Shown in pieces: positions 3,128 through 56,935 of a stretch of DNA of 64,000 bases (the first letter of the stretch is position 1; the number at the start of each line of letters is the position of its first letter). Below the pieces are notes generated by a model, which saw nothing but the letters and a program-made list of their open reading frames with translations, searched no databases and was not told the DNA's origin. Position numbers and translations under genes: made by a program. The DNA is from Bacillus sp. 491mf (GTDB lineage: Bacteria; Bacillota; Bacilli; Bacillales; Bacillaceae_G). Location: contig NZ_FOLV01000005.1 of the NCBI RefSeq assembly GCF_900112415.1, positions 124,001-188,000 of the forward strand, in the 5' to 3' direction.

Positions 3128-3247
3128 AAAGTGAAACTTCCTTTCATGAGCGCTTTTTTCATGAAAGGTTAGTTGAACCAATCGGGCTCTTACGGATGGT
3201 TTGGCTTTCTTCTTGTCTATGCTTCTTACCAGCCGTTTGAGCGGGGT
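3128..3247 (+). repeat. family B hairpin repeat, tandem copy 1
   Basis: This 120-bp unit starts with AAAGTGAAACTT, then a hairpin (CCTTTCATGA / TCATGAAAGG), the fixed box TTAGTTGAACCAATCGGGCT, a second imperfect hairpin (CGGATGG / CCAGCCG) and the end box GAGCGGGGT. It is repeated directly downstream and elsewhere in the window with different stem sequences. It lies about 30 bp upstream of the glycosyltransferase start, so it occupies that promoter region. Confidence 0.9.
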
Positions 3248-3368
3248 AAAGTGAAACTTCCTTTCATGAGCGCTTTTTTCATGAAAGGTTAGTTGAACCA
3301 ATCGGGCTCTTACGGATGGTTTGGTTTTTCTTCTTGCCTGTGCTCCTTACCAGCCGTTTGAGCGGGGT
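3248..3368 (+). repeat. family B hairpin repeat, tandem copy 2
   Basis: This copy is nearly identical to the preceding unit (a few substitutions and one extra base in the loop of hairpin 2). The near identity of the pair suggests a recent tandem duplication. No gene lies in the rest of the 3097-3558 interval apart from the phoU terminator. Confidence 0.9.
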
Positions 3369-8015: not shown

Positions 8016-8018
8016 TAT

Positions 8019-8210
8019 CTATATACAAATTAAAAAACCAGGATAAAAACCTTTTCTTTTTAGATGGGCGAGAGCACCTGGCCATGCTTAGAAGCGGTCA
8101 GGGCCTTTTTCTGCCACGGGCCATGCTAAACAAAAAGAGGGAACGAGTGCTTGTCACTTTTTGTTTTACATAGCAGCGATTTAGATGGTGAAAGATTAAC
8201 GTCGATTTAT
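8019..8210 (+). repeat. family A repeat, copy A1
   Basis: This copy starts with CTATATACAAATTAAAAAAC and contains the conserved core TGGGCGAGAG..CTGGCC..GGTCAGG..CTGCCA. It ends near GATTTAT, where it runs directly into an inverted family B copy. Its left end touches the Pho box of pstS. Confidence 0.85.
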
Positions 8211-8360
8211 CCCGCATTAACAGGCAGTAATACTCCCGCCTCAAAATTCAGCAGAAGCAAAGAAGTTAGGCGGGAGATGAACTGCCCGTAAAAGCCCGAT
8301 TGGTTCAACTAATAATCAGTGGGGGATGAAGAAAACCCCCACTGATTAAAGTTTCACTTT
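8209..8360 (-). repeat. family B hairpin repeat, copy B3
   Basis: On the minus strand it reads AAAGTGAAACTTTAATCAGTG, a perfect 12-bp hairpin (AATCAGTGGGGG / CCCCCACTGATT), TTAGTTGAACCAATCGGGCT, a second hairpin (CTCCCGCC / GGCGGGAG) and an end box GCGGGAT. The fixed boxes match the copies at 3128-3368, but the stems are entirely different. Confidence 0.88.
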
Positions 8361-12130: not shown

Positions 12131-12335
12131 TAATATATAAATACAACTTGAAAAACCAACATAAAAACCACTTTTTTTAGATGGGCAAGAGTGTCCGGCC
12201 ATGCTTGGAGCGGTCAGGACCCTTTTCTGCCACATGCGTTATTTAAAATAAAGAGAGAAGGCAAGTGCACATTATGGTGTATTCTGTATAGCAGCAATTT
12301 GTATGTTAGTAAATCAACTTGAACTGTATATATTA
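12131..12335 (+). repeat. family A repeat, copy A2
   Basis: It is bounded by TAATATATA at the left and its inverse TATATATTA at the right. The core reads TGGGCAAGAG..CCGGCC..GGTCAGGA..CTGCCAC. A family B start-like remnant (AATGAAACTTTCATTAGTAA) precedes it at about 12098-12125. It fills the gap between the MFS start and the sodA terminator. Confidence 0.85.
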
Positions 12336-14766: not shown

Positions 14767-14968
14767 CTATATAAATAAAAATTGGAAAAATAACACAAAA
14801 ACCCCTTTCTTTTCAGGTGGGCGAGAGTATCTGGCCATGCATAGAAGCGGTCAGGGCCTTTTTCTGCCACATGCAAAGTGTAAAACAAAGGGAGAAAGCA
14901 AGTAGCGGTGATATTTTTTCTGCCTAGCCGCGACCGATATGTTGAAAAATCAATTTGTATTTATATAG
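14767..14968 (+). repeat. family A repeat, copy A3 (best-preserved ends)
   Basis: The left end CTATATAAATAAAAATTG (14767-14784) and the inverse of the right end (14951-14968) match at 17 of 18 positions. In the core, TCTGGCC (14830-14836) pairs with GGTCAGG (14849-14855) around a 12-base loop, and GTGG (14817-14820) pairs with CCAC (14867-14870). A family B remnant AAAAGTGAAAC directly precedes it. It lies between the LysM-like gene and ispG. Confidence 0.9.
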
Positions 14969-19416: not shown

Positions 19417-19671
19417 ATGAACCTCATTCAACAGTTTGTAAATAAAAAAATAAACAATATGACTTCTAAGGAATTATTAAAATACAGTAAAGAATATGAA
19501 GTGCCTATAACAAGCGAACAAGCAGATAAAATTGTCACATTAATTCAAGGAAAACAGATTAATATTTATGATATCCAAGAAAGATTACAACTTTTAAAAC
19601 AAATTGCAACGGTTACTTCTCCTGCTACCGCACAACAAATTAATACCCTATTTCAAAAATTAATAAATTGA
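19417..19671 (+). CDS. yqfT: DUF2624 protein (YqfT-like)
   Basis: This 84-residue helical, soluble protein starts with NLIQQFVNKKINNMT behind AAGGAGGG. It matches the size and place of B. subtilis yqfT, between yqfU and nfo. Its function is unknown. It shares a bidirectional terminator with nfo. Confidence 0.75.
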   Translation: MNLIQQFVNKKINNMTSKELLKYSKEYEVPITSEQADKIVTLIQGKQINIYDIQERLQLLKQIATVTSPATAQQINTLFQKLIN

Positions 19672-19717
19672 AACTTCCATCAATGTGATGTAACTATCCA
19701 AAATAGCAGGACAAAAT

Positions 19718-19741
19718 AAAAAAGGGGTGCTCCCCTTTTTT
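19718..19741. terminator. bidirectional terminator between yqfT and nfo
   Basis: The 10-bp stem AAAAAAGGGG / CCCCTTTTTT with loop TGCT lies between convergent genes and overlaps the nfo stop. Confidence 0.9.
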
Positions 19742-20636
19742 ATTGTCCTTTAATTTTCTGAAGAATCTCTTCATCAAACACACCGTTTTTCAGCATTTCA
19801 ATTTCAAATTTATACGGTGGCTTTTTATCGTTTTTATCTTCACCTACATATGGTGTTTCAAGAATTTTTGGCACATTCTGTAATTGTGGATGATGAACAA
19901 TGTGATGCAATGCTTTATAACCAATGTGACCGAAACCGATATTTTCATGACGGTCTTTTTTAGCGCCGCACTCATTCTTGCTATCATTAATGTGTAATAC
20001 TTGTAAACGATCAATACCAATCATTTTATCAAACTCATTTAAAACGCCGTCGAAATCATTAACGATATCATAACCAGCATCATGCGTATGACATGTATCG
20101 AAGCAAACTGATAATTTCTCATTATGTGTTACACCATCGATAATTCTCGCAAGCTCGTCAAAGCTACGTCCACACTCTGTTCCTTTTCCAGCCATTGTTT
20201 CTAGCGCAATGTTCACTGTTTGATCAGTTGTTAATACTTCATTTAATCCTTCAATAATCTTTTGGATTCCTGCATCCGCACCTGCTCCAACATGAGCTCC
20301 GGGATGGAGTACAATTTGCTTTGCAACACCTAATGCTGATGTTCTTTCAATTTCCATGCTAAGAAAATCAACACCTAGTTGGAATGTTTCAGGTTTCGTT
20401 GTGTTACCGATGTTAATGATATATGGTGCATGAACAATGATTTCTTCAATTCCGTGCAATTCCATATGTTTACGGCCTGCTTCTATATTTAACTCTTCAA
20501 TCGGTTTTCTTCGCGTATTTTGCGGTGCCCCTGTATAGATCATAAACGTTGTTGCACCGTATGACACAGCTTCTTCACTAGCTGCTAATAACATTTTCTT
20601 TCCACTCATCGAAACGTGAGATCCAATTTTCAACAT
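19740..20636 (-). CDS. nfo: endonuclease IV
   Basis: The 298-residue AP endonuclease cleaves 5' of abasic sites in base-excision repair. It starts with the family pattern [11 protein letters not shown] and has metal-ligand segments [41 protein letters not shown] and HINDSKN, the full tri-zinc set in order. The C-terminus is complete. Confidence 0.97.
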
Positions 20637-20696: not shown

Positions 20697-20932
20697 CTAT
20701 ATACAAGTTAAAAAACCGTAACTACTCAGTCACTCTATGAAAACAAGGCAGAAAAGCATTTTTTAAATGGTATGGAAGGGACTGGCTATGTATAGGAGCG
20801 GTCAGGGCCTATTTCTGTCACATGCAATGTTTAAAACAAGGAGACATGTCCTGGTGTATTCTGCAAAAGAAAAACGGAGCCTAGAAAGCAAAGCTAGACA
20901 AAGATGTCGAAAAATCAAACCGGATTTATATA
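20697..20932 (+). repeat. family A repeat, copy A4 (diverged)
   Basis: The left end CTATATACAAGTTAAAAAAC and right end GGATTTATATA are kept. The core is diverged (ACTGGCTATG..GGAGCGGTCAGGGCC..CTGTCACATGC) and carries about 35 extra bases near the left end. A short open frame inside it (20767-20958) is not a gene. Confidence 0.8.
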
Positions 20933-22364: not shown

Positions 22365-22564
22365 TTATATATATCCATTTTCATTTTCCGACATCTTTGT
22401 CTAGCTTTGCAGCACACAACATGACCTGCACTCGCTCGCCTCCTCTGTTTTAAACCTCGCACGTGGCAGAAATAAGCCCTGACCGTTTCTATGCATGGTC
22501 TGATGCTCTCGCCCGCCTAAAACAAAGAGGGTTTTTTATATCTTTTTTAACTTATCCATCTATA
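22365..22564 (-). repeat. family A repeat, copy A5
   Basis: On the minus strand it begins TATAGATGGATAAGTTAAAAAA. It contains GGCGGGCGAGAGCATC, ATGCATAGAAACGGTCAGGG and CTGCCACGTGC, and it ends GGATATATATAAAG. It lies in the divergent promoter region between cshB and yqfQ. Confidence 0.85.
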
Positions 22565-33561: not shown

Positions 33562-33747
33562 AAGAATCCACCTTTCTCAGTGAGCGTTCATGTAATCCAA
33601 TTTCTTTCTTTGCTATTAAAATGACCCATTTTGTTCATTTTCATGTGAGAAAAATTTTTCTAAATTATACAGCTTTTATCTTGCTATTTGCGAGCATGAA
33701 AAGCTCTATTTGTTCAACTAAGTAAACGTAAGAAAAATCGTTTCACC

Positions 33748-35452
<1,705 letters not shown>

Positions 35453-38169: not shown

Positions 38170-38345
38170 CTATATGCATGCAAGGTAAAAAACGACATAA
38201 AACCACTTTCTTTTAGAGGAGGGCGTGAGCATCCGGCCGCGCATAGAAGCGGTCAGGGCCTTTTCCTACCAACAAGTAGCAGTCAAATTGGATTCTGCAC
38301 TTGCAGTGACTTGTATGTCGAAAAATTAAAATGGGTTTATCTATA
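38170..38345 (+). repeat. family A repeat, copy A6
   Basis: The left end is CTATATGCATGC. The core reads AGGGCGTGAGCATCCGGCC, CATAGAAGCGGTCAGGGCC and CTACCAAC. The right end is GGGTTTATCTATAAA. The tail is shorter than in other copies. It is followed directly by two family B units. Confidence 0.82.
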
Positions 38346-38352
38346 AAATGTA

Positions 38353-38470
38353 CAGTGAAACTTCCTTCTAGAGCGCTCTTCTCTAGAAGGTTAGTTGAAC
38401 CAATCGGGCTCTTACAGTCGGTTTGTTCTTTCTTCCTTGCTCTGCTTCTACCGACTGTTTGGGCGGGGTA
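38353..38470 (+). repeat. family B hairpin repeat, copy B6
   Basis: It has hairpin 1 CCTTCTAGAG / CTCTAGAAGG, the fixed box TTAGTTGAACCAATCGGGCT, hairpin 2 ACAGTCGG / CCGACTGT (perfect, 8 bp) and end box GGGCGGGGTA. The stem sequences differ from the 3128 and 8209 copies, but the pairing is kept. Confidence 0.9.
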
Positions 38471-38524
38471 CAGTGAAACTTCCTTCTAAAGCGTTCTTTT
38501 TTAGAAAGTTAGTTGAACCAATCA
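38471..38524 (+). repeat. family B hairpin repeat, truncated copy B7
   Basis: It has hairpin 1 CTTCTAAA / TTTAGAAAG and TTAGTTGAACCAATC, and is then cut off by the phoH terminator. It forms a tandem pair with B6. Confidence 0.85.
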
Positions 38525-42109: not shown

Positions 42110-42350
42110 TATATATTTCTATAACAATTCAATATGATTCTATCGAAATGTTCGCCTCTGCTTTCTCATCCTCTAAGCACTGCACCGTAACCTGCCAAAC
42201 GAGATCAAAAGCGGCTATGTAGAAAAAGGAGACTGCACTCGCTTGCTCCCTTTGTCTAACTTCGCATGTGGCAGAAAAAAGCCCTGACCGCTTCTATGCA
42301 CGGCCAGATGCTCTCGTCCACCTAAAAGAATGGGTTTCTGTCTTTTTTCG
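42110..42350 (-). repeat. family A repeat, copy A7
   Basis: On the minus strand it reads AGGTGGACGAGAGCATCTGG, CATAGAAGCGGTCAGGGC and CTGCCACATGCGAAG, with a long tail to the left. Its other end runs into the family C hairpins. Confidence 0.82.
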
Positions 42351-42357
42351 CCTTTAT

Positions 42358-42597
42358 TTTATCCAGCTGCGCCTCCTAGTCCTTCACGTCTAAGAACCTT
42401 CCACGCGAGAAGGTAAAGAACACCTTCTGCGTGAAAGAACCTTAGCCAACAGGACTAAACAGTCGGCTCCGCTTTTATATTATCCAGCTACAGCCGCTAG
42501 AACAATCGGTCGTTTCACTCTTTCCTACGAGGCAAAAAACGCCTCTGCGTTAAGAGCTCCAACGCCCTCATGTTCTATACGAGCGGCTTTCGCTTTT
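42358..42597 (-). repeat. family C: two tandem long-hairpin units after deoC
   Basis: Unit 1 (about 42358-42476) and unit 2 (about 42477-42597) have the same frame on the plus strand: TTATCCAGCT at one end and CGGCT..CGCTTTTAT at the other. Unit 1 folds through TAGTCCT / AGGACTA and ACGCGAGAAGGT / ACCTTCTGCGT. Unit 2 folds through AGAACA / TGTTCT, GCCGCT / AGCGGC and GAGGC / GCCTC. The stems differ while the ends match. They lie directly after deoC and may end its transcript. Confidence 0.82.
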
Positions 42598-45550: not shown

Positions 45551-45747
45551 AGTAAAGTTTAGCTCTTTTCGTAAACGAGTGCTTACGAAAAGAGCCAAAC
45601 AGTATGATTTAGACGAAACAAATGGTAAGTCCCCCGCTGCTTTCAGCGAGAGACTTTCCGCTTACATCATCCATAAACACTTAATCAGGGAGACTTTATC
45701 CCGCTATTCGTGAGCTAAGACTTCCACTGACTGAAGTTTCACTTTAT
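45551..45747 (-). repeat. family B-related hairpin element, copy B10 (diverged)
   Basis: On the minus strand it starts with AAAGTGAAACTTCAGTCAGTG, as family B does, but lacks the box CAATCGGGCT. It ends in a strong hairpin (GGCTCTTTTCGTAA / TTACGAAAAGAGCT). It splits prmA from rsmE inside an otherwise compact operon. Confidence 0.7.
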
Positions 45748-50449: not shown

Positions 50450-50572
50450 AACTTTCACCTCCTTAAAAAGGCAGGGCAGGCACACCTTAGTACAAACCCA
50501 GCTATCTAATTTCTTGTATCCAACTAATCATATGTAGCGGAATATACCCCCGCCACAAATGGAAGTTTCTTA

Positions 50573-51604
50573 TTATTCCGGTTTATACAAACCGTTCAGT
50601 CCATCTGTAAATTGTCTTGTAAACAATTGCAACAAACTAATGACACGAGAATATTGCATTCTTGTCGGTCCTAAAATCGCAATTGTTCCAAGTTGCTCAT
50701 CTCCAATCGAGTATGTCGCAGAAATCAAACTACAATTTTCCATAGCAGCTGAAGAATTCTCACGGCCAATTTTCACTTGAATGCCAATTTGTTTACTCTT
50801 TAAGATATCATAAAAAGCATCTTCATTTTCAATCATATTGAATAATAATCTGACCTTTTGAATATCATGGAATTCAGGCTGCGCAAGCATATTTGTTTTT
50901 CCACCAAAATATACTTTTTCAGATAATGGAAATTGAAATGTACCGTCTAACATCTTCATGACGCTATCATAATTATGAACGTACTGACGCAAAACCATTA
51001 CAATTTCTTTAAAGATTTTATTATGCAGTTCTGACATCGGTACACCAGACAACTTGTCATTCAAAATGTTAACCATTTTTTCCAAATCTTGCAAATCAAC
51101 AGATTCCGGAACCGTGATTGTTTTACTTTGCACATGTCCTGTATCAGTTACAATAATTGCAACCGCTGTTTGATGTCCAAGCGGAAGTATTTGCACATTT
51201 TTCAACTTATTCGCACTAACTTTTGGCCCAAGAACAATTGCCGTATAATTCGTGAGCTCTGATAAAATTTGCGCTGATTGCTGCGCAAGCTTTTCTGCTT
51301 CAAAAACTCTTTGAGCGAACAAGTCTTTAATTTGTATAACATCTTCACTAGGCAAATGTTGCGGTGCAAGAAGATGATCTACATAAAAGCGATACCCTTT
51401 TTCAGAAGGAACGCGCCCTGAAGAACTATGTGTTTTTTCAATAAACCCTAATTCTTCTAAGTCAGCCATTTCATTTCGAATTGTTGCTGAGCTAAATGTG
51501 ATTTCTTCTTTTTTAGATAATGTTCTTGATCCAACAGGTTGTGCTGATCCGATAAAATCGTCAATTATCGTCTGTAAAATTAAGAGCTGACGTTCCGTAA
51601 GCAT
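50573..51604 (-). CDS. hrcA: heat-inducible transcription repressor HrcA
   Basis: The 343-residue repressor has an N-terminal winged helix ([17 protein letters not shown]) and the HrcA sensor domain. It binds CIRCE with help from GroE. It leads the hrcA-grpE-dnaK-dnaJ-prmA-rsmE-mtaB operon and represses itself through the CIRCE at 51621-51647. Confidence 0.97.
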
Positions 51605-51704: not shown

Positions 51705-51819
51705 AAGGTGAAACTTTTAGCAGCACGATTTTCGCTGCTAATTAGCTGAGCCAATCGGGCTCTTACAGACGGTTTTTCTTCTCGATTTACCTCTTTGTAC
51801 CGTCTGTTTGAGCGGGACA
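51705..51819 (+). repeat. family B hairpin repeat, copy B9
   Basis: It starts AAGGTGAAACTTTTAGCAGC. Hairpin 1 is TTAGCAGC / GCTGCTAA, followed by GAGCCAATCGGGCTCTTAC, hairpin 2 ACAGACGG / CCGTCTGT (perfect) and end box GAGCGGGAC. It lies between the hrcA promoter and the hemW stop, 18 bp from the -35. Confidence 0.9.
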
Positions 51820-51825
51820 CAGCGT

Positions 51826-52965
51826 TTAATCCACTAAGAATGATTGAAAGACTTCATTTCCTAATAACTTCCCTTTTCTTGTTAAACAGACATGATTATT
51901 TGTTTCTTGAAGCAATTCATGTTCCTTATTATGACGTAACTGTTTTGCAAAGATATCGTTCATCTCTACGCCGAATTTTTTGCTGAATTCCACTTTCGAA
52001 ACGCCTGCTGTTTTTCGAAGCCCTAAGAATAACTCTTCTTCCATTTTTTCTTGGGTTGTTACTGTATGAACATCTAAATACGGCAAACCTGTCTCATCAA
52101 TTTTCGTAAAATATTGTTTTAGTGGACCTACATTTTGAATACGCTCGCCATTTACGTAACTATGAGCGCCAGCTCCGAAACCGTAGTATTCATCATTATT
52201 CCAATAAGTTAGGTTATGTCTACTTTCATAACCCTCTTTTGAAAAATTACTAATTTCATACTGCTGATAACCATGCTTCGCCATCTCATCCATCACAATT
52301 TCATACATTTTAGCCTCATTGTCTTCACCTGGGAGTCTCAGCTTTCCTTTATTCATTAAATTATAAAAGACCGTTTTCGGCTCCACAATTAAAGAATACG
52401 CTGAGAAATGTTGAACCCCAAGGGTAAATGCAATCTCTAACGTTTCTTTCACGTCTTCTATCGTTTGCCCTGGCAATGCATAAATTAAATCAACATTAAT
52501 ATTTGTAAAACCAACTTCCTGCGCCTCACGAATCGCTACAAACGCATCTTCTCTCGTATGCCCGCGCCCAATTTTTTTCAGCAATTCATCTCGGAACGTT
52601 TGAACACCAAAACTAATCCGGTTTACGCCGCCTTCTTGTAGAAGATTTAATTTCTCTTTTGGTAAATCTCCCGGATTCGCTTCAAAAGTTAGTTCACAAT
52701 TTGGCGCAAACGGCCGTAAACGACGATTAATAATATCTAGCAATTGCTTTGTCTGTTCCATATTTAGCGCTGTTGGCGTTCCTCCACCAACAAAAATCGT
52801 TTTCATTTCTTTAAAAGGCGTTTTGTTGATTGTATTCACAATTTCTTTCTCTAAATATTGCAAGTATTGTTCAACTGGCTGACGTTCAATAAACACTTTA
52901 TTAAAATCACAATAGTGACAAATATGCTGACAAAACGGAATATGAATATATGCAGCTTGTATCAA
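51826..52965 (-). CDS. hemW: radical-SAM haem chaperone HemW
   Basis: The 379-residue protein has the radical-SAM motif CQHICHYC (about 12-19), GGGTPT and a C-terminal HemN-type domain. The spacing CxxxCxxC and the short N-terminus fit HemW, a haem-binding insertion chaperone, rather than coproporphyrinogen oxidase. It lies between lepA and hrcA as in B. subtilis (hemN/yqeR). Confidence 0.93.
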   Translation of the reverse strand: MIQAAYIHIPFCQHICHYCDFNKVFIERQPVEQYLQYLEKEIVNTINKTPFKEMKTIFVGGGTPTALNMEQTKQLLDIINRRLRPFAPNCELTFEANPGDLPKEKLNLLQEGGVNRISFGVQTFRDELLKKIGRGHTREDAFVAIREAQEVGFTNINVDLIYALPGQTIEDVKETLEIAFTLGVQHFSAYSLIVEPKTVFYNLMNKGKLRLPGEDNEAKMYEIVMDEMAKHGYQQYEISNFSKEGYESRHNLTYWNNDEYYGFGAGAHSYVNGERIQNVGPLKQYFTKIDETGLPYLDVHTVTTQEKMEEELFLGLRKTAGVSKVEFSKKFGVEMNDIFAKQLRHNKEHELLQETNNHVCLTRKGKLLGNEVFQSFLVD

Positions 52966-56751: not shown

Positions 56752-56935
56752 CAAATTTTCGACATATAGATTGCTGCTATGCAGAAAAAAGGAATCTGCT
56801 ACTTTCTTGCTCCCTTTGTTTGAATTTTGCATGTGGTAGAAAAAGACCCTGACCGCTTCTATGCATGGCCAGATGCTCTCAATCATCTAAAAAGAGGGAG
56901 GTTTTATGCCGTTTTTTTAATTTGGATTTATATAG
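56752..56935 (-). repeat. family A repeat, copy A8
   Basis: On the minus strand it begins CTATATAAATCCAAATTAAA. It contains GAGAGCATCTGGCCATGCAT, AGAAGCGGTCAGGGTC and CTACCACATGC, and it ends at ATGTCGAAAATTTGT. It lies between the divergent genes gpr and rpsT. Confidence 0.88.

Follow-up and report, generated by a model that had tools for sequence, protein, structure and literature searches.

A dispersed repeat with two hairpins and exchangeable stems in Bacillus sp. 491mf and other genera, and how it might move

The window analysed here, a stretch of 64,000 nucleotides from Bacillus sp. 491mf (contig NZ_FOLV01000005.1, positions 124,001 to 188,000), carries a repeat in which short boxes recur from copy to copy while the hairpin stems between them are exchanged wholesale and still pair, which raises the question of what preserves such a shape and what moves it. 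There are six copies at four loci, one of them truncated; each of the six that the sequence-only reading had listed is real, although the fifth ends early and is not a full copy. The copies and four weaker matches to the covariance model R1 are as follows (genomes and loci of the wider collection are cited below by G and L numbers).

3128..3250, + strand: copy 1; left flank CTAAA, right flank GTAAA shared with copy 2; left end GTGAAACTT at 3131-3139, hairpin 1 arms at 3140-3149 and 3159-3168, box 2 at 3169-3188, hairpin 2 outer arms at 3192-3200 and 3228-3236, GAGCGGG at 3239-3245
3248..3367, + strand: copy 2, head-to-tail with copy 1 (unit of 120 nt); box 2 at 3289-3308, GAGCGGG at 3360-3366
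8206..8360, - strand: copy 3, the widespread 'default' form (158.9 bits with R1); ATAAA flanks at both ends
38352..38472, + strand: copy 4; hairpin 1 CCTTCTAGAG/CTCTAGAAGG, hairpin 2 ACAGTCGGT/ACCGACTGT; GTACA at either side
38473..38523, + strand: copy 5, truncated; GTGAAACTT, hairpin 1 and box 2 as far as CAATC, without hairpin 2 and box 3
51705..51821, + strand: copy 6; hairpin 1 TTAGCAGC/GCTGCTAA, hairpin 2 ACAGACGGT/ACCGTCTGT
50453..50574, - strand: weak match, possible remnant (24.6 bits, E 3.5e-5)
33675..33749, - strand: weak match with box 2 at three mismatches, remnant-like (23.3 bits, E 7.9e-5)
45695..45745, - strand: weak match, ATAAAGTGAAACTT ... AGCGGGATAAA, remnant-like (15.8 bits, E 0.011)
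19624..19751, - strand: very weak match, remnant-like (15 bits, E 0.02)

In a pattern search of the window, box 2 (TTAGTTGAACCAATCGGGCT) occurs exactly at 3169+, 3289+, 8293- and 38391+, with 0 expected by chance, and with two to three changes at 51742+, 38509+ and 33702-; the left end GTGAAACTT gives 10 exact matches against 0.84 expected. R1 scores the copies at 8206-8360-, 3128-3250+, 38352-38472+ and 51705-51821+ with E-values from 8e-44 to 1e-24, these four being among the 39 rows from which the model was built, and the four weak matches may be remnants of the element. Fixed boxes joined by exchangeable pairing stems had been proposed, and the pairing stands: with hand-defined stems, hairpin 1 of copies 1-6 pairs at 10/10, 10/10, 13/13, 10/10, 8/9 and 8/8 positions, and hairpin 2 at 8/9, 8/9, 9/9 (one G.T), 9/9, absent and 9/9. 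The constancy of the boxes does not, since copy 3 has TAATGCGGG in place of GAGCGGG and box 2 of copy 6 carries two changes. Nor is every stem fully self-complementary; nearly all positions pair, and copies 1 and 2, which are 99% identical over the first 82 nt, have a single A/G mismatch in hairpin 2. Hairpin 1 of copy 3 is 13 bp long and the inner stem of its hairpin 2 is CTCCCGCC/GGCGGGAG. All window loci are intergenic or at the edges of predicted genes (glycosyltransferase, phoU, pstS, a PBP2B-like gene, an HDIG protein, a PhoH-like gene, hrcA and hemW); copy 6 is flanked by hrcA (50573-51604, - strand) and hemW (51826-52965, - strand), and one ORF call of the glycosyltransferase begins within copy 1.

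The element is non-coding, about 110-160 nt long, and is covered entirely by two adjacent hairpins of one strand. Box 1 pairs with the 5' half of box 2, enclosing hairpin 1 and leaving a GA/GA loop and a T/TT bulge, and box 3 pairs with the 3' half of box 2, enclosing hairpin 2 with a GG/GG loop. The closure of hairpin 1 reads GT[GA]AACT ... AGTT[GA]AC, with the T/TT bulge beneath the freely exchangeable stem; that of hairpin 2 reads ATC[GG]GC ... GC[GG]GAT, which brings the AT of the right-hand ATAAA into the pairing with box 2. The boxes are thus not single-stranded, as had been supposed, and form further helices among themselves. Folded alone at minimum free energy, the L001 copy takes practically the same structure (z -7.9 as DNA, -7.1 as RNA). 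Both hairpins also form in window copy 1 and in the L308 copy, hairpin 1 together with its helix of the AACT or GACT type; in the DNA fold of window copy 6 both hairpins form and the box helices do not. The window and one copy each of L001 and L308 gave no Rfam match at the gathering score.

Support for the fold came from two alignments. For A1, 113 of 129 full copies passed the filters and 38 were kept for dissimilarity, from which one spurious row was removed and to which two window copies were added; the resulting 39 dissimilar copies gave R1. RNAalifold on A1 pairs box 1 with box 2 and lets box 2 touch box 3 in a register differing from the structure named above, and helices 1 and 2 are paired in 92.7% of 1070 cells, with 84 double-change cells against 19.1 after shuffling. 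The full structure was counted in A2 (114 model-aligned copies, 111 distinct, with 95 of about 295 sources used), an alignment that is not fitted to the box 2-box 3 helix because R1 lacks that helix. Among the 111 distinct copies, 92.3% of 3854 cells pair (85.4% when shuffled), both sides have changed in 217 cells against 49.5 shuffled, and 25 of the 36 pairs show such change; when the partner is slid by 1-3 columns the covariation score falls from 0.205 to at most 0.039. The strong covariation suspected from the window therefore holds, and it extends far outside the window genome. By helix, pairing amounts to 96.4 and 96.6% for box 1-box 2, 92.1% for hairpin 1, 84.4% for box 2-box 3 and 96.9% for hairpin 2; one of the eight box 2-box 3 pairs (T69-T155 of the L001 copy) is mostly unpaired (78/109 cells). 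A direct reading of 106 of the 114 rows shows that the box 2-box 3 helix covaries: GC stands with GC in 74/85, GG with CC in 7/7 and AC with GT in 7/10, besides four other rows, and these counts are not frequencies, the GG/CC and AC/GT forms having been fetched deliberately from G007 and G003 after variants of box 2 were noticed. One box 1-box 2 pair also covaries in A2 (A-U 98, U-A 4, C-G 2), and distant subfamilies from the phylum search show by eye other stems, such as GACT/AGTC and GGCT/AGCC. The unpaired places are kept too (GA/GA in 102/111, GG/GG in 93/111 and T/TT in 92/111 distinct copies), where the letters of box 2 are inflated, as most loci were found through the exact box 2 pattern and some distant subfamilies differ there. 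What evolution preserves appears to be largely the folded two-hairpin shape and not the letters of its stems.

The family spans many genera, some with one-contig genomes. A scan with the 25-mer TTAGTTGAACCAATCGGGCTNTTAC returned at least 120 stretches, and the 80 listed carry 18 genus names, 17 of them other than Bacillus: Lysinibacillus, Sporosarcina, Neobacillus, Cytobacillus, Domibacillus, Peribacillus, Psychrobacillus, Rummeliibacillus, Oceanobacillus, Terrilactibacillus, Fredinandcohnia, Lentibacillus, Caldibacillus, Metasolibacillus, Gottfriedia, Bacillus, a strain filed as Paenibacillus, and Alkalibaculum (Clostridia). The genomes of ten such loci hold 4 to 69 matches each at up to three mismatches, against 0 for a reversed control pattern. 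R1 finds the element in 51 of the 150 genomes from the order to which G003 belongs (E <= 0.001; no more than the best 20 candidates per genome were scored, and the 51 include G003, which was known beforehand) and in 25 of 299 genomes of its phylum (E <= 1e-5, no more than the best 10 candidates per genome). Searches with the default form matched 2 of 72,556 plasmid records at E 1e-5 and 10 at E 10, and 0 of 50,697 phage records; a pattern of box 1 plus box 2 occurs in 2 viral contigs. Cyanobacterial plasmid matches (H9-H11) were rejected as single hairpins at E 0.1. Among the plasmid matches none bears the name B. cereus, thuringiensis or anthracis, and a single decayed copy comes from Bacillus arachidis. 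A complete short copy lies at L292:4003-4092 in a record filed as Klebsiella grimontii plasmid pNY3A (CP079755.1), which is suspected to contain Bacillales DNA.

Both borders are marked by ATAAA. In the 132 copies with both ends, the five letters to the left of GTGAAACTT are ATAAA in 112 and the five to the right of GCGGG in 106, and no position beyond these borders is strongly conserved; a few of these rows share an end or belong to arrays, so that the rows are not independent. Deviations fall on the first base in 12/26 cases on the left and 7/35 on the right (p 0.049), ATAAA is present on the right in 13 of 20 left-deviant copies, and the flanks are equal in one of seven doubly deviant copies, which is window copy 4. 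The evidence leans toward a target kept at the left and a right ATAAA borne by the element. Terminal inverted repeats are absent, the end GTGAAACTT and the opposite end CCCGCATT / AATGCGGG not being inverted repeats of each other. Where ORFs neighbour the element on either side (107 copies), no copy lies within an ORF longer than 1 kb, and the four possible arrangements relative to these neighbours (36, 30, 21 and 20) give no clear preference of orientation.

That the element is mobile, in line with one of the two options raised by the sequence-only reading, is borne out by a comparison of filled and empty sites. At L191 in G002, the genome of the Lysinibacillus parviboronicapiens loci, the filled site reads GATAATCG-ATAAA-element-ATAAA-TTTTGAAAATC, and its closest relative (97%) is empty and reads GATAATCG-ATAAA-TTTGGAAAG. 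The site is empty as well in ten more genomes of that genus at 88-96%, giving 1 filled and 11 empty in all; ATAAA stands at 8 of the 11 empty sites, and the other three have ATAAT, ATAAG and ATAAC. The difference is a precise gain (or loss) of the element together with one ATAAA, which at this site includes, by eye, the TAA that ends the upstream ORF. The same search at L122 matched only the element itself and another repeat, and at L226 the element is present in each of the three nearest genomes, the remaining ones being too diverged. We read the element as a non-autonomous mobile repeat.

Several known systems resemble it in part. Repeats of the bcr1 type became known in 2004 and are not known to have an enzyme assigned. 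In the accessible portions of the published accounts, bcr1 (of the group A repeats bcr1-bcr3) is non-coding, folding, mostly chromosomal, 147-167 nt long and present at an average of 39 per strain, with a TTTAT motif once or repeated, MITE-like and with no enzyme named (PMC6542083, PMC3446304, PMC2267715); bcr repeats in general are there given as 200-400 bp (PMC8725734) and as specific to the B. cereus group and absent from other species (PMC6542083). The present element likewise has ATAAA (= TTTAT) borders, which are also shared between adjoining repeats, is about 150 nt, non-coding, dispersed and mobile, and has no named enzyme either; by size and borders it fits the bcr1 group, a comparison by description and not by bcr1 sequence. 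It is, however, not restricted to the B. cereus group, as the 17 other genus names attest. The caution that these copies could already be described as bcr elements is thus probably true in part, for size and borders and not for the reported host restriction. PapR, taken as a marker for B. cereus-group genomes, matched 0 of 397 genomes, and the control genomes gave no match either. REP palindromes combine variable stems with a RAYT and mobilisation in trans. They also have short fixed tags (GTAG/CGTC) with palindromes at high copy, according to the part of PMC3733652 available, and the element shares such tags, palindromes and copy number but differs in having two hairpins closed by paired boxes, other tags and no Y1 association. 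The ends of IS200/IS605 and the PATEs have sub-terminal hairpins with unpaired bases, a short target retained beside the end and guide-like pairing, all of which recur here, whereas hairpin 1 of the element begins at the very end, its stem letters are free and there is no Y1 association. Integron attC sites are folded single-stranded DNA recognised by shape and extrahelical bases; shape recognition of this kind is what we propose for the element, which has other boxes and two hairpins. A literature text search with four core sequences gave no match, and the partly covered literature on related repeats does not describe the family outside the B. cereus group. Measured against the literature covered, the fold, the paired boxes and the breadth of genera are new, and the class, a non-autonomous structured repeat, is known. 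A covariation-supported structure, a many-genus range and a filled/empty site together make the question of what moves such repeats testable.

For that question our best explanation, which we regard as having about an even chance of being right, is a non-autonomous element of some 110-160 nt moved as a folded single strand by a trans-acting enzyme that reads its shape. The enzyme would come in trans, from the host or another element, and its substrate would be a folded single strand, most likely DNA. It would recognise the fold together with the internal loops and the ATAAA ends, whatever the letters of the stems. The folded strand would be joined to an intergenic TAAA target, leaving a copy bounded by ATAAA on both sides, and tandem arrays would arise by insertion at, or duplication between, shared ATAAA. 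A trans-acting enzyme is proposed because neither Y1 transposases nor reverse transcriptases track the element, because left ends lie near most right ends, and because no transposase was seen among the ORF clusters read. Of 41 right ends, among those listed, in 40 stretches from G090 and G005, 37 have a left end at most 344 nt away, which leaves no room for a transposase gene; the other four, where the left end is missing, distant or degraded, could hold a long copy, and this search for an autonomous copy yielded composites, deletion forms and these four cases. Clustering grouped the ORFs of 130 loci, and no transposase was seen in the 12 representatives inspected by eye; these look like ordinary genes, one cluster consisting of ORFs through the element. 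Points against this explanation are the mixed orientation to replication given below, the lower pairing of the box 2-box 3 helix and its differing register in RNAalifold, the missing box helices in the DNA fold of window copy 6, and the three empty sites without ATAAA. Should shape recognition by a new enzyme prove true, it would be a further case alongside attC and the REP/IS605 hairpins. More speculatively, and as a possibility we hold only tentatively, the element may belong to a Bacillota-wide 'shape-coded' superfamily, in which a recombinase would move a folded single strand by reading the two hairpins, the GA/GA, GG/GG and T/TT loops and the internal sequence that pairs with the ATAAA end, stems drifting freely and new hairpin modules being accepted, with bcr1 as a local branch.

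Mobilisation by an IS200/IS605-type Y1 (HUH) TnpA, as in REP/RAYT or PATE, is unlikely, and the link to RAYT/Y1 transposases suggested earlier found no backing. Sub-terminal hairpins with an unpaired T, a T-rich TTTAT target on the antisense strand, the lack of a clear target duplication and an end that pairs, guide-like, with internal sequence would all suit such an enzyme. A lagging-strand substrate would be expected to show one-sided orientation relative to replication, and four genomes gave a mixed picture (origins from GC skew, plus dnaA for G090 and G005): among the matches listed, 23/27 loci of G176 (p 3e-4) and 58/82 of G090 (p 2e-4) point one way, but G005 shows the opposite trend (6/23, p 0.035, and 11/31, p 0.15), and 7/11 loci one way in G077 are uninformative. 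Against the Y1 account, there is no association across 150 genomes, many of them drafts that may miss genes (the Y1 domain was not found in 10/51 element-bearing and 15/99 element-free genomes), no Y1 match was obtained in G136, with 12 copies, or in G054 and G065, with 20 or more each, and all 30 of the best Y1 loci lack a right end, five of them having a left-end-like string at two mismatches. A classical MITE, in which a DDE transposase cuts double-stranded ends and leaves a 5-bp target duplication, the hairpins being passengers, seems still less likely. The 5-bp direct repeats of ATAAA agree with it, as do the deviant yet equal flanks of window copy 4 and the term MITE-like applied to bcr1-bcr3 in the available part of PMC3446304; the ends GTGAAACTT and AATGCGGG are, however, not the terminal inverted repeats of a MITE, compensatory change keeps the structure deep inside the element, and deviant flanks are otherwise unequal.

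Two further explanations concern what keeps the stems paired and which molecule acts. A mutational process (template switching that turns a quasi-palindrome into a palindrome), and not selection on shape, might keep the stems complementary. Quasi-palindrome correction yields long perfect arms that differ wholesale, and such arms are seen between copies; the deletion forms of G090 joined at GTGGGGG repeats also point that way. Yet the bulge and the GA/GA and GG/GG loops stay uncorrected, and the short helices between distant boxes covary, so we judge this improbable. Slightly more improbable is an element that acts and moves as RNA, a SINE-like retroelement or structured non-coding RNA whose 3' AUAAA would prime on the target for a reverse transcriptase to copy it in. 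The fold contains tandem GA, which is common in RNA, the right ATAAA may belong to the element, and the portion of PMC3446304 available places bcr copies within mRNA in two B. cereus strains (84/165 and 62/155). However, an RVT_1 match is missing from 12 of the 33 genomes with at least five scored copies and present in 30/51 element-bearing against 50/99 element-free genomes (again many drafts that may miss genes), gene orientation and Rfam lend no help, and wobble G.T is just slightly above A.C (111 against 80 cells in 114 rows; 29 against 28 in A1). Such similar counts are unlike a strongly selected RNA read from one strand, an argument that is weak because many copies may be decaying, and the RNA-binding factor once suggested is not favoured.

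Arrays and derived forms add further detail. Units of arrays, which number up to seven among the matches listed for G176, share one ATAAA or GTAAA and by eye are most alike within their own array, so that arrays may grow by local duplication. L316, L317 and L318 represent one orthologous site in three Lysinibacillus-genus genomes with 4, 1 and 4 units, where by eye the stems differ between genomes and agree within an array. Many of the 40 stretches from G005 and G090 have an extra hairpin module of about 70 nt inside box 2, seven stretches of G007 have a second element reversed inside box 2 of a host copy (one, L278, disrupted), and G090 has forms shortened to about 52 nt. Composite and deleted forms thus occur at many places, and perhaps not every part of the fold is required. 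The extra modules in many of L252-L271 (G005) and L235-L250 (G090) have CsrA-like loops AGGA[CT] or the complement and variable paired stems. At L233 (G090) a further hairpin module, about 100 nt long, is inserted in the 5' region of hairpin 2, and L016, L116 and L118 have a mini insert of about 35 nt in hairpin 2, which is one hairpin that ends in GATAAA. At L253 (G005) a tandem array of about 21 nt (CTGTCGAACCTCAAGCCTAAA) stands directly before a copy.

The window contains other repeats as well. A second family, GGCGAGAG..CTGGCCATGCTTAGAAGCGGTCAGGGCC..TTTCTGCC, is found at 8016-8150, 12163-12266, 14769-14903, 20749-20854 and 38171-38271, and two of its copies adjoin copies of the two-hairpin element. 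A third repeat, of 114 nt, occurs at 22440-22553, 42245-42358 and 56810-56923, its copies being about 70% alike.
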